Source: Acholeplasmataceae bacterium (GTDB lineage Bacteria > Bacillota_I > Bacilli_A > Acholeplasmatales > Acholeplasmataceae). Taken from it: a stretch of DNA of 61,405 nt. A program made the translations under genes and the position numbers. The DNA is taken from contig RECG01000007.1 of NCBI GenBank assembly GCA_007692425.1, positions 1-61,405 on the forward strand, read 5' to 3'. The notes beneath the pieces were generated by a model. It worked only from the letters and a program-made list of their open reading frames with translations. It had not been told where the DNA came from and searched no databases. Each line of letters starts with the position of its first letter. The stretch's first letter is position 1. Positions 8,972 through 55,226 of the stretch are shown one piece after another.

Positions 8972-10585
8972 TCACGATTTGGTTTTCAGGATTTGTATCT
9001 TGATTTGACGACCGTTGACGAGGCGTGACTGCAAGCTTTCAAGACGTTTGACAGCAGCCGGATGGATTTGAAAACGGGTCATGCTTTTCTCCATCTCGAT
9101 ATCGCCGATGTTGCGTGGATAGAGATCGGCATGTTTCTTGAAATAATCCAAGAGGGTCACCGGTCTGAAACCATCGCTTTTGCCTAAGTTGATGGTGGCC
9201 AGACGATAATGAGTGGCCGGTTTTCGACGATTCGACGTGTCGCTCCGTTCTGTTTTCAAGGCGGGTTTGCGGATGGGCGGACCGATTGGCTCATAGTCGG
9301 TGGAGACCTTGATGGTCGCATTCAACAAGCCGGTCATGACCGCCTCGTCGGAAAAGCCATCCTGACGGAGTTTGGTGATGATGTCTGACACGTCAGCGGT
9401 CTGGTTTTCAATCATGCGCTTGATGCTTTCATAGGCGCGGTCCCGCATGCGGGCATTGATGGCGGTTTCATCGGGAATCGACAGTTCAACCATGCGTGTC
9501 TTGATGAAGCGTTCGATCATGTTCAGCTTGGTACGCAGACTGGGATAGACCAATGAGATGGAGACCCCGGATTTGCCGGCTCTGCCGGTCCGGCCGATGC
9601 GGTGGACATAGACTTCGTCTTCGAAAGGCATTTCATAATTGATGACCATGTCGACATCCTTGATGTCCAGACCACGGGCCGCGACATCAGTGGCGATCAA
9701 ATAGTTCATTTTTTTACTTCTGAACCGGTTCATGACCTGATCACGCTGGCTTTGTTTGAGATCACCGTGCAAAGCTTCCGCCTCGCGGTTGTGTTTTTGC
9801 AAGAAAGCGGACAAGTCGTCGACATCCTTCTTGGTGTTGGCGAAAATGATGGCCGAAGGTGGTGCATAATAATCGAGCAGACGCAACAAGAGCTGGTCAC
9901 GATCCGCTTTCCTGACCATGACATAATACTGTTCGGTCAAGGAAACGGTCATGGTCGGCGTGTCGATTTTGATGATGACCGGTTGACGTTGATAACGTTC
10001 GGCCACTTTTTTGATAAAGGGCGGAATGGTCGCGGAAAACAAGGCGGTCTGACGGCTGGAAGGCGTGTCGCGCAACATGCGCTCGAGGTCTTCCTGAAAC
10101 CCCATTTTAAGCATTTCATCAGCTTCATCCAAGACCAGGACACGCAATTGGCTGAAATCAATCGTTTTGCGTTCAAGATGGTCGATGGCACGTCCGGGGG
10201 TGGCGACCACGATCTGGGGATGGGCGGCCAACGCCTTGAATTGCTTGGTGTAGGATTCGCCGCCATAAACCGATGTCACACGGATGGCGCGGTTGAATTT
10301 GACAAGCTTTAAAAACTCCTTGTAGACTTGGAGTGTCAGTTCCCTGGTGGGACAGATGACCAACGCCTGGACATCTTCGCAGGCGGGATCGATCTTTTCC
10401 AAAATCGGAATGGCGAAGGCAAACGTCTTGCCGGTGCCGGTCTGAGCCTGGCCGATCAGGTCTTTGCCTGCAAGCATGACCGGAATGGCTTCATGCTGGA
10501 TGGCGGTGGTTTCGACCAGTCCGAGGGCTTCGATCGCCTGCTTGGTCTCGTCGCGAATGGGTAATGCGTCAAATAATAGATTCAC
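8972..10585 (-). CDS. DEAD-box RNA helicase (CshA/DeaD type)
   Basis: This 537-residue ATP-dependent RNA helicase shows the full motif set: Q motif near residue 30, motif I AQTGTGKT (47-54), PTREL, DEAD, SAT, and HRIGRTGRAGKSG. A C-terminal extension of about 170 residues ends in a basic segment that resembles the RNA-binding (DbpA/RRM-like) tail of CsdA/CshA enzymes. Such helicases unwind mRNA and rRNA structures in cold adaptation, ribosome assembly and RNA decay. RNase J is also encoded in this window. An extended -10 box TGG-TATAGT lies about 35 bases upstream. Which helicase paralogue this is cannot be settled from sequence alone. Confidence 0.93.
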   Translation of the reverse strand: MNLLFDALPIRDETKQAIEALGLVETTAIQHEAIPVMLAGKDLIGQAQTGTGKTFAFAIPILEKIDPACEDVQALVICPTRELTLQVYKEFLKLVKFNRAIRVTSVYGGESYTKQFKALAAHPQIVVATPGRAIDHLERKTIDFSQLRVLVLDEADEMLKMGFQEDLERMLRDTPSSRQTALFSATIPPFIKKVAERYQRQPVIIKIDTPTMTVSLTEQYYVMVRKADRDQLLLRLLDYYAPPSAIIFANTKKDVDDLSAFLQKHNREAEALHGDLKQSQRDQVMNRFRSKKMNYLIATDVAARGLDIKDVDMVINYEMPFEDEVYVHRIGRTGRAGKSGVSISLVYPSLRTKLNMIERFIKTRMVELSIPDETAINARMRDRAYESIKRMIENQTADVSDIITKLRQDGFSDEAVMTGLLNATIKVSTDYEPIGPPIRKPALKTERSDTSNRRKPATHYRLATINLGKSDGFRPVTLLDYFKKHADLYPRNIGDIEMEKSMTRFQIHPAAVKRLESLQSRLVNGRQIKIQILKTKS

Positions 10586-10657
10586 TGTTCTTCCTCACTT
10601 CTTTTTCAAACCTTGAATACTATACCATATTTTTGTTAAAAATACCATCATATGCAA

Positions 10658-52126: not shown

Positions 52127-52156
52127 AAAACCGCATCTGTAGATGCGGTTTTTTCT
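52127..52156. terminator. sodA terminator, also usable by hpf
   Basis: A perfect stem AAAACCGCATCT-GT-AGATGCGGTTTT is followed by T on the plus strand and by TTTTGTTT on the minus strand, so it may end both sodA and hpf. Confidence 0.88.
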
Positions 52157-52192: not shown

Positions 52193-52744
52193 TCAGATGG
52201 TTTGAGTCTCGATCACGGCGTAATCGCCGTCATCACGGCGATACACCACATGGGTGCGCCCTGTCTGGTGATCGAGGTAGACATAGAAGTCATGACCGGA
52301 GAGTTCCATGGCGGCAATCGCCTCCTCGGAAGTCATCGGTTTCAACTCGACCTTCTTGTTTTTGACAAGTTGTGTGGCAAGCACTTCTTTTTCAAGCTGT
52401 TCAGCATCGAAGGCTTGGCTGTAGGCTTGCTTGATGCCTTCTTTTTCAAGATTTTTCTTCAACTTGTCCTTGTGTTTCCTGATTTGGGCCACCAACTTGT
52501 CGTTGGCCTTGTCGATGGCGGTGTACATGTCCGGGTCGGTGACTTCGGCACGAAGCACCGTGCTCTTGGCGGGGATGGTCACTTCGATCTTGTGATGGTC
52601 CTTATAGACTTTGCAGACCACCCTGATTTCCGAGATGACTTCCGGTCCGAAAAAGGAAACAACTTTCATCAAACGTTTTTCGGCGTATGCCCTGATGGCA
52701 TCGGTGGGCACAAAACCGTTTTTACCCAGCACTTCAAATTTCAT
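52193..52744 (-). CDS. hpf: Ribosome hibernation promoting factor, long form
   Basis: This 183-residue protein has the N-terminal ribosome-binding domain (residues 1-95) and, after a linker with EKEVLATQLVKNKK, the C-terminal dimerisation domain with DFYVYLDHQTGRTHVVYRRDDGDY (shown by its FYVY and RRDDG elements). This is the long HPF that forms 100S ribosome dimers. The start follows AAGGAG. It overlaps the ComF-like gene by 11 bases. Confidence 0.95.
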   Translation of the reverse strand: MKFEVLGKNGFVPTDAIRAYAEKRLMKVVSFFGPEVISEIRVVCKVYKDHHKIEVTIPAKSTVLRAEVTDPDMYTAIDKANDKLVAQIRKHKDKLKKNLEKEGIKQAYSQAFDAEQLEKEVLATQLVKNKKVELKPMTSEEAIAAMELSGHDFYVYLDHQTGRTHVVYRRDDGDYAVIETQTI

Positions 52745-53123
52745 GGTTTTTCTCCTTTTTTTCTACTCTGTTTTCATATAATGCAATCACATGAAGATGT
52801 CCGAGTTTGAGCAGATCCAGCATCGCCATGATGGCTTCATCCATCTCATCGAAATACAAGAGGAGATGGTCATGAACATGGCGGACGTGGTGGATGATGT
52901 AAGGTTTGAGAAACGACATATGGGCCAAAGGCGATGTGCGTCGCCGATGCCGGACCAGAACCGTGAGTTGCATCACTCCTTCCTCGATCGGAATCGTACG
53001 GTGGCTGGGGATGATCGGATGTTTCCGGTAGCATCGCTCACATATGTGATGGGTCTCAACCTTGAAATAGCGTTGGATGGTGCGTCTCGTCTTGACGCTT
53101 TTGCTACATACCTCACAAAGCAT
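52734..53123 (-). CDS. Shortened ComF-like zinc-ribbon protein
   Basis: This 129-residue protein begins MLCEVCSKS and has a second pair ICERC about 23 residues later, matching the N-terminal zinc ribbon of ComFC. The remaining 95 residues lack the phosphoribosyltransferase domain that makes up most of ComFC and are rich in His, Leu and Arg. comF next to hpf is a common Bacillota order, which supports the relation. Its GGAGG lies in the 3' arm of a 12-bp hairpin. It may be a reduced remnant or a distinct small protein; function unknown. Confidence 0.6.
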   Translation of the reverse strand: MLCEVCSKSVKTRRTIQRYFKVETHHICERCYRKHPIIPSHRTIPIEEGVMQLTVLVRHRRRTSPLAHMSFLKPYIIHHVRHVHDHLLLYFDEMDEAIMAMLDLLKLGHLHVIALYENRVEKKEKNHEI

Positions 53124-53159
53124 GACAAGCCCTCCTGTCTCATACTAGGAAGGCTTGTC
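53124..53159 (-). promoter_or_regulatory. Hairpin covering the ribosome binding site of the ComF-like gene
   Basis: On the minus strand GACAAGCCTTCC and GGAGGGCTTGTC (one G-T pair) form a 12-bp stem with a 12-base loop. The GGAGG site of the ComF-like gene is inside the 3' arm and the ATG follows directly. No T run follows, so it is not a terminator. The same sequence on the plus strand has a C-A mismatch where the G-T pair is, which favours a function on the minus-strand RNA. Confidence 0.65.
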
Positions 53160-53168
53160 CGTTTTTGC

Positions 53169-55226
53169 TTATTTCTTGTAGGCTTCGACAATCTTGTCGA
53201 TCAATTGGTTCGGCACTTCCTCGTAACGCAGGAATTGGCGGGTGAAGGACCCGCTGCCTTGTGTCATCGCCTTAAGGTCGATGGCATACTTGACAATTTC
53301 CGCTTCGGGCACTTCGGCGACCACGACTTGGAAACCATCGGTCTGGTTCATGCCGAGCACGCGCCCGCGTCGTTTGTTCATGTCACCCATGACGTCACCG
53401 ACAAACTGGTCTTTGACGGTCACCTCGACCTTGACAATCGGTTCGAGGATGGTGGGTGAAGCGGTTTTGATCGCTTCTTTGAAGGCCAAGGCGGCAGCCA
53501 GTTTGAAACTGATTTCGTTCGAGTCGACGGCATGATAGGAACCGTCATAAAGCGTCGCTTTGACATTGATGACGGGGAAACCGGCCAATGGTCCGCTTTC
53601 AAATGTCTCAATCAAGCCTTTTTCAACCGCTGGAAAATAGTTTTTAGGGACTGCGCCGCCAAAGACATTTTCGGCGAATTCGAAAATCTCCTTGCCTGGT
53701 TCGAACTTGATCCAGACATGACCGAACTGTCCGGCCCCGCCGGACTGTTTCTTGTGTTTGCCTTCGGCCTGGACGCTTTTCTTGATGGTTTCACGGTAAA
53801 CGATTTTCTGGTCATCGATGTCGACATCGACCTTGAACATCGTCTTCATGCGTTCGATGATATAACCAAGATGCGTCATGCCCTGACCGCCGAGCAACAG
53901 CTGGGCTGTTTCTTTGTTGCGTCGGATCTCAAAGGTTGGATCTTCCAGGTTGAGACGTTGCAAGGCTGACGAAATCTTGTCTTCATCGTTTTTGTTTTTG
54001 GGATGAACGGCGATATAGATGACCGGAGTAGGCAAGATAACCGGTTCATAGACAATCGGGTTTTTCGGATCGGCAAGCGTGTCACCGGTCTCGAGACCGT
54101 CGATTTTAGCCACTGCGGCAATGTCGCCCGCATGGAAGGTGTCCATTGGCAATTGTGTCTTGCCTCTCAGCATGAAGAGATTGGAAACCTTCTTGTTTTC
54201 ATCTTTGTTGGTTAACGTAACTTCCTGACCGGCTTTCAAGACACCTGAGTTGATTTTGACAAAACTGATGGCACCCATGAATGGATCGACAACAGTCTTG
54301 AAGACATAGGCTGAGAAAGGCTCACTATCAAGTGTTTGACGGGTGATGTCGGCATCAGTCTTGGGATTCTTGCCGAACAAGGGTTTGAGTTCGTCCGGTG
54401 CCACCACATAGTCAATCAACATGTTCATGAGTGTTTTGACACCGATTGTCTTGGTGGCACTGCCGACGAGCACGGGTGTGATGTCTCCGCTCGTGATGCC
54501 TTTTTTCAAGGCTGCCTTGATCTGTGCTTCACTGATGGTTTCACCGGAAAAGTAAAGTTCCAGCAATTCTTCTGATGTTTCGGCCACGCTTTCCATGATG
54601 TTTTCCCTGAGTTCATCGACCTTGGGTTTCTTTTCTTCCCAGATCTCGGCATCATGACAATCGGTCCCATCGTGTATACGGGCTTTCATGTCGATGACGT
54701 TGACAAATCCCTCGAAGTTTTCCTCATGGCCGATTGGCCAGCAAAACGGCACGGCTTTTTTACCTAGTTTTTCACGGATGTCTTCCAGTACTTTTTCAAA
54801 ACGGACGTTTTCCTTGTCCATCTTGTTGACGAAGACCATGGTTGGGATGTGACGGCTTTTGATTTCCTGCCAGACCCGTTCGGTGCCGACTTCAACACCT
54901 TTGCTGGCATCAATCAGCACAATCGCGCCTTTGACGACGCCGAGTGCCTGGTTGAGGTCACCGACAAACTCGTCACTGCCCGGCACGTCGAGGAAATTGA
55001 GTTTGTGATCCTGCCATTCGACCGGAATCATGCTCATCGACAAGCTCGAGAGTTTGTTCTGTTCTTCGACCAAATAGTCAGAAACCGTATTCTTGCGTTC
55101 CACTTCCCCCTTTTTTTCGATGTTTTTGGCTGCAAAAAGCAGCGCTTCAGACAGCGTCGTCTTACCGGAACCCTGATGTCCCAGGATGGCGATATTACGA
55201 ATCTGCTTGGTTTGGTATTCCTTCAT
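53169..55226 (-). CDS. EF-G paralogue (FusA2-type)
   Basis: This 685-residue translational GTPase has the domain order of EF-G, but its P-loop is GHQGSGKTT (16-24) instead of GHxDAGKTT, and the DTPG motif reads DVPGS. These are features of the EF-G2/FusA2 subgroup rather than the main elongation factor. NKMD and the RGR...GM loop of domain IV are present. Subgroup roles differ and include ribosome recycling or stress. It is followed by the ComF-like gene and hpf. An extended -10 box lies at 55265-55270. Confidence 0.88.
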   Translation of the reverse strand: MKEYQTKQIRNIAILGHQGSGKTTLSEALLFAAKNIEKKGEVERKNTVSDYLVEEQNKLSSLSMSMIPVEWQDHKLNFLDVPGSDEFVGDLNQALGVVKGAIVLIDASKGVEVGTERVWQEIKSRHIPTMVFVNKMDKENVRFEKVLEDIREKLGKKAVPFCWPIGHEENFEGFVNVIDMKARIHDGTDCHDAEIWEEKKPKVDELRENIMESVAETSEELLELYFSGETISEAQIKAALKKGITSGDITPVLVGSATKTIGVKTLMNMLIDYVVAPDELKPLFGKNPKTDADITRQTLDSEPFSAYVFKTVVDPFMGAISFVKINSGVLKAGQEVTLTNKDENKKVSNLFMLRGKTQLPMDTFHAGDIAAVAKIDGLETGDTLADPKNPIVYEPVILPTPVIYIAVHPKNKNDEDKISSALQRLNLEDPTFEIRRNKETAQLLLGGQGMTHLGYIIERMKTMFKVDVDIDDQKIVYRETIKKSVQAEGKHKKQSGGAGQFGHVWIKFEPGKEIFEFAENVFGGAVPKNYFPAVEKGLIETFESGPLAGFPVINVKATLYDGSYHAVDSNEISFKLAAALAFKEAIKTASPTILEPIVKVEVTVKDQFVGDVMGDMNKRRGRVLGMNQTDGFQVVVAEVPEAEIVKYAIDLKAMTQGSGSFTRQFLRYEEVPNQLIDKIVEAYKK

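Follow-up and report, generated by a model that had tools for sequence, protein, structure and literature searches.

The start of a small gene downstream of an elongation factor G (EF-G) paralogue in an Acholeplasmataceae bacterium is buried in an RNA hairpin, and the putative -10 box of a promoter extends from the 5' arm of this hairpin into its loop. We think it fairly probable that the promoter is used by a SigH-like sigma factor and that the hairpin acts as a lock on read-through messages, which would place the small gene and the gene for ribosome hibernation promoting factor (HPF) behind it under the control of the sigma factor. The window analysed here is a whole stretch of 61,405 nucleotides, and the locus lies on its minus strand.

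Genes of the locus

The coding sequence of the EF-G paralogue (685 residues, 53169–55226, from reading frame and profile search) is followed by the gene of a 129-residue, small zinc-finger-like protein (52734–53123) and by that of HPF (52193–52744, profile match), which overlaps the end of the 129-residue gene. No terminator was found between the EF-G paralogue and the next gene. A bidirectional terminator-like hairpin (52127–52152) lies between hpf and a convergent gene recognised by eye as superoxide dismutase. Another, higher-scoring EF-G is encoded elsewhere in the same genome (G000:C20:82073), so the copy in the window is a paralogue, as the initial annotation had proposed, and its identification of HPF was confirmed by Pfam and NCBIfam searches. 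The initial annotation had also named the 129-residue protein ComF-like, a designation that was not confirmed. The protein has four invariant cysteines. It gave no significant Pfam or NCBIfam match to ComFC, which combines a zinc ribbon with a phosphoribosyltransferase domain, and its best PDB match in a fold search was not significant (E 0.44). The term comF loci is kept below for loci of the 129-residue gene, as a label that profiles and fold do not back. Elsewhere in the window, a perfect sigma-70 promoter match, TTGACA-16-TATAAT (56207–56180), precedes a gene whose product contains Listeria-Bacteroides repeats.

A hairpin encloses the ribosome-binding site

The minus-strand RNA of 53180–53100 has a predicted folding energy of -27.8 kcal/mol (z -4.9), and none of 200 shuffled sequences folded equally well. 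The helix consists of thirteen contiguous pairs between the 5' arm GACAAGCCTTCCT (53159–53147) and the 3' arm AGGAGGGCTTGTC (53136–53124), both assigned by folding. The hairpin proposed previously is therefore real, with thirteen pairs instead of twelve. One of the pairs is G-U and fits the minus-strand RNA, in agreement with the earlier assignment of the strand. The Shine-Dalgarno sequence AGGAGG (53136–53131) is paired within the 3' arm, and the ATG (53123–53121) follows the arm immediately, as had been described. The stem begins just past the stop codon of the EF-G paralogue (53171–53169), at a distance of nine bases, not ten. Opening the region from -16 to +3 of the 129-residue gene would cost 23.0 kcal/mol, the highest value among the 51 start regions of the window, for which the second highest value is 10.6 and the median 5.5 kcal/mol. 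The hairpin matched no Rfam family, and the only further copy of its DNA in the same genome was a 14-base chance match.

The accessibility of the start was computed for a long RNA containing both arms and for a short RNA starting at the Shine-Dalgarno sequence. The paired probability of the latter is 0.98–1.00 in the long and 0.01–0.32 in the short RNA, and opening AGGAGG costs 14.7 and 0.7 kcal/mol, respectively. In the short RNA, the AUG is partly paired with downstream bases, and the Shine-Dalgarno sequence is located at the extreme 5' end. The low translation that the initial annotation had predicted for messages lacking translational coupling is thus to be expected for the read-through mRNA.

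Conservation of the junction

The 129-residue gene is present in 46 of the 61 nearest genomes and in 51 of the 88 genomes of the family Acholeplasmataceae, and the order EF-G paralogue, 129-residue gene, HPF is kept in most of the fetched loci. We read 66 junctions; because the relatives share their phylogeny, these and all following counts of sites and loci are non-independent. The covariance model R1, run against the 88 genomes, identified one strong copy per genome, upstream of comF, in 29 genomes. The remaining matches were antisense echoes of the strong copies and weak matches, several of which belong to other genes of the putative regulon. The stem of the 29 strongest matches is 99.5% paired across 19 distinct rows. 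One pair differs at both positions, with U-A in place of C-G in L018 and L043, and one is U-G, a modest covariation that results from the high conservation of the hairpin core. In more distant relatives the arms diverge yet still pair. The stem is thus kept in the relatives, which the initial annotation had suggested comparing at this junction. The invariant columns of 21 diverse junctions are C-T-A..A-T close to the loop, not the arms, and the most conserved element is the sequence CTANYAT at the hairpin loop rather than the stem. Four comF loci of genus g9 located beside EF-G (L052, L055–L057) are without CTANYAT, though the SigH-like gene is present.

A putative promoter within the hairpin

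The loop element of the window, CTAGTAT (53142–53148), covers the top of the 5' arm, reaches into the loop, and is a putative -10 box. Sixteen nucleotides before it, the sequence AAGCAA (53165–53170), a putative -35 box one base off the consensus AAGTNA, overlaps the EF-G stop codon; AAGCAA is also found at comEA of the same genome. CTANYAT and AAGTNA probably constitute a two-box promoter, from which transcription is predicted to start at the Shine-Dalgarno sequence, past the 5' arm (53135–53136, from the spacing to the -10 box). TANYAT is also similar to a housekeeping -10 box; the matches listed include no sigma-70 promoter near 53171–53135. The initial annotation had named a separate promoter downstream of the hairpin as an argument against its own reading, and the two boxes, which are common to other genes at a spacing of 15–17 nucleotides, are a candidate for a separate promoter with its start beyond the 5' arm. 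The overlap of the putative -35 box with the stop codon would account for the closeness of the EF-G stop to the hairpin.

Several weak R1 matches show this layout upstream of genes other than comF; in the genome of the window the gene concerned is comEA. The pattern CTANNATN5AGGAGG occurs at 124 sites in 51 of the 88 family genomes, compared with 25 sites for the reversed pattern (hand tally), a control that does not take into account how frequent AGGAGG is at gene starts. Genes downstream of the matches listed include, as recognised by eye, the 129-residue gene with hpf, comEA, recA, and radC, and also a gene of a secreted protein of about 208 residues after a PepP-like gene (sec208) and one of a secreted protein of about 400 residues (sec400). 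Forty distinct sites, picked without any rule on a -35 box, have 27 AAGTNA in the 60 bases upstream, 24 of which fall 15–17 nucleotides before CTA. Outside the comF loci, AAGTNA is present at this distance in 18 of 34 sites and missing there in 16. At the comF loci, AAGTAA coincides with the lysine-stop end of EF-G. In L019 and L020 it is retained within the reading frame and does not serve as the stop of EF-G, and in five of eight loci with a gap of 68–93 nucleotides it stands alone at -44/-45. The full pattern AAGTNA-N15-17-CTANYAT has five sites in the genome of the window against two for the control; one of the five is intragenic, and the others belong to recA, a gene of a UvrD-like helicase, and two genes of extracellular proteins. 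Elsewhere it is weak by itself, with four sites against eight for the control in G001 and none against four in G002.

Several matches were rejected as members of the regulon, since they have no AAGTNA or fitting start: those at rplT (L100, L110, L112, L149) and sites such as L101, L105, L108, and L117. As separate observations, AAGTGA-N15-CTATTAT (10573–10600) is located near the start of a DEAD-box-helicase-like gene in the window, 95 nucleotides before the ATG given by the script, and an extracellular-protein gene (L152/L204, G000:C20:134011) starts within a long arm of a hairpin with the same boxes in its loop.

The better conservation of the loop than of the arms could also indicate a switch that opens on a signal, with the loop box as the target of a protein or small RNA or with the hairpin acting as a thermometer. 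Such a loop motif would have no need of the spaced upstream partner AAGTNA, the box is retained at recA, where the hairpin is weak, and no Rfam family corresponds to the element. We regard the switch as highly improbable, the least probable of the readings weighed here.

The predicted lock is less widespread than the boxes

We scored a site as locked if the cost of opening AGGAGG in the long RNA reached p ≤ 0.05 in comparison with 100 RNAs in which the upstream part had been dinucleotide-shuffled. Locks were found in 43 of the 48 comF loci beside EF-G, in two of the eight with a longer gap, and in two of the ten without EF-G in the fetched piece. The lock is weak at the longer gaps, where most loci show, by eye, a terminator after EF-G. 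Of 35 loci other than comF, those at comEA (4/4), radC (2/3), sec208 (9/14), sec400 (2/6), and two remaining groups (1/2 and 0/1) were locked in the proportions given; the other five sec208 and four sec400 sites have no clear lock. None of the five recA sites is locked, though the boxes are kept there. These 35 loci do not include the rejected matches named above, the model match L091, the in-gene or doubtful sites L151 and L153–L155, the sites L123, L125, L127, and L128, or the duplicates L104, L114, L116, L118, L119, L121, L141, L143, and L156. L054 and L130, the latter from the genome of the window, are locked though a nearby upstream gene in the same orientation was not found, so the association of the lock with read-through is imperfect. 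In a swap test, the native value exceeded the mean swap at 22 of 22 sites, a result biased by the choice of sites partly for their locks. In whole groups, the native value was above the mean swap in 10/11, 9/9, 9/13, 6/7, and 4/6 cases, and at recA in 4/5, with almost equal means. The putative promoter is common to the gene set, and the predicted lock is not.

The initial annotation had proposed translational coupling, in which a ribosome finishing EF-G melts the stem and allows starts on the next gene. The nine-nucleotide distance from the EF-G stop in the window agrees with coupling, as does the occurrence of locks mainly at EF-G-adjacent loci (43/48) and more rarely at gaps of 68–93 nucleotides (2/8). 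A terminating ribosome would extend no further than the base of the 13-bp stem. Locked elements before other genes have the upstream stop 36–68 nucleotides before the -10 box, which is, given this footprint, too far for the ribosome to melt the arm, and L054 is locked without EF-G. The constant distance to the stop would be accounted for by the overlapping putative -35 box, and coupling leaves the conserved loop box unexplained. With the inner two-box promoter as a candidate, coupling is unlikely to be the purpose of the hairpin, and it may provide some minor help on the long mRNA.

At many sites the putative -10 box is flanked by a dyad, which would also suit a DNA operator read by a transcription regulator. 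The arms vary between sites yet stay complementary, and folding is stronger for the sense strand than for the antisense (mean -13.3 and -11.2 for 71 distinct sites; the difference is -2.15 for native and -1.23 for shuffled 5' arms). These properties, together with recA sites that carry the boxes without the dyad, make the operator very unlikely.

A SigH-like sigma factor and the gene set

The genome of the window encodes the sigma factors RpoD, one ECF-like, and one SigH-like of 168 residues. The best equivalog match of the latter is TIGR02859 (E 1.2e-11), which scores 44 bits, below its cutoff of 294.8, and covers residues 5–86 only. The gene (L202) is positioned between rlmB-like and nusG-like genes, neighbours named by eye. 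In B. subtilis and L. sakei, sigH occupies the corresponding position, in the order rlmB-sigH-...-nusG. One study mentions the cysS-nusG locus in this context (PMC3364868).

A SigH-like sigma factor was found in 55 of the 88 family genomes. Genus g8, with 29 genomes, gave no match to it and also has no CTANNATN5AGGAGG site and no 129-residue gene. We assume that g8, with its small genomes, represents the phytoplasmas. Among the 59 genomes outside g8, the sigma match is missing in four (G007, G030, G076, G111), and two of these, G030 and G076, carry the motif. G008 has the SigH-like factor and the motif and no ECF sigma. G033 has two copies of the SigH-like gene. Based on this co-occurrence, the SigH-like factor probably reads the two boxes.

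By eye, the genome of the window (1.45 Mb) has ComEA and a ComEC-like gene; the pilus ATPase (PF00437) and DprA (PF02481) gave no match in it. Since the name ComF-like is not supported either, we refer to a DNA-uptake, recombination, and hibernation gene set, not to a competence regulon. At L096 (G000:C7) and L201, comEA is followed by a ComEC-like gene in the same locked layout, and recA, 5 kb away, has the boxes and no lock.

Proposed mechanism

The following mechanism can be proposed for the operon. The sequences themselves show the hairpin, its conservation, the two-box motif, the common gene set, and the co-occurrence with the sigma gene, and from these we infer the promoter function of the boxes, their use by this sigma factor, the start site, and the consequence for translation. 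The long mRNA from the EF-G paralogue would carry both arms and have its Shine-Dalgarno sequence locked, so that the zinc-finger-like protein and HPF would be made weakly at most; HPF may additionally start independently. When the sigma factor is active, RNA would begin at the Shine-Dalgarno sequence, which would be free because the 5' arm is missing. The position of HPF in the operon fits the requirement of B. subtilis hpf for sigma-H.

We speculate, with less confidence than an even chance, that the whole alternative-sigma regulon of the Acholeplasmataceae is built in this way. The -10 box would be placed at the loop and the -35 box within the 5' arm or ahead of it, and the 3' arm would contain the Shine-Dalgarno sequence, at the first bases of the transcript. 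Leaky read-through would then be mute in a gene-dense genome, and only sigma-dependent mRNA would be translated. RecA, which is always needed, would keep the promoter and drop the lock. If correct, the model would equip an alternative sigma factor of a mollicute family with a testable promoter consensus and a gene set for DNA uptake, recombination, and ribosome hibernation. An RNA lock would replace terminators in shielding a regulon from read-through, and synthesis of the hibernation factor would be tied to the same type of sigma as in B. subtilis.

Comparison with known systems

In Firmicutes, according to the portions available of the cited papers, SigH-type sigma factors of the Sigma-H/ComX regulons (L. 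sakei, S. aureus, streptococci) are encoded near nusG (PMC3364868), their targets include comEA, comEC, comF, or hpf (PMC3364868, PMC12421865), and B. subtilis hpf requires sigma-H (PMC12421865). The regulon proposed here differs in its putative boxes, AAGTNA-N16-CTANYAT, and in that the genome gave no match for the families of the pilus ATPase and DprA. Sigma-20 of M. genitalium (MG428) is likewise an alternative sigma factor of a mollicute and, in the text available, has recA among its targets (PMC9262362). The part seen of an A. laidlawii start-site study (PMC5138195) contains no text on SigH or competence, and no listing of the promoter-in-hairpin layout for Mollicutes was found in the literature searched, which is not proof of absence.

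The lock itself has precedents, described here from partial texts. Long upstream mRNAs of the T4 genes e, soc, and I-TevI hide the ribosome-binding site, and a late promoter around the 5' arm produces a short, well translated mRNA (PMC3014915, PMC2988022). Our locus resembles them in the pairing of the Shine-Dalgarno sequence in computed folds of the long mRNA. As an inner promoter whose mRNA would be free of the 5' arm, the two-box motif at fixed spacing is a candidate. The T4 genes serve phage timing and have mapped starts, whereas here a bacterial sigma regulon is proposed and starts are predicted from sequence. For sigG of B. subtilis, a large hairpin was proposed to block translation of read-through from spoIIG; mRNA that starts at the inner sigma promoter is unable to form it (PMC5942855). 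That read-through lock concerns a single gene, whereas the present layout, with the -10 box at the loop, recurs at comF-hpf, comEA, radC, and other genes. A mechanism known singly from T4 gene e, and proposed for sigG, looks here like a feature of a sigma regulon.
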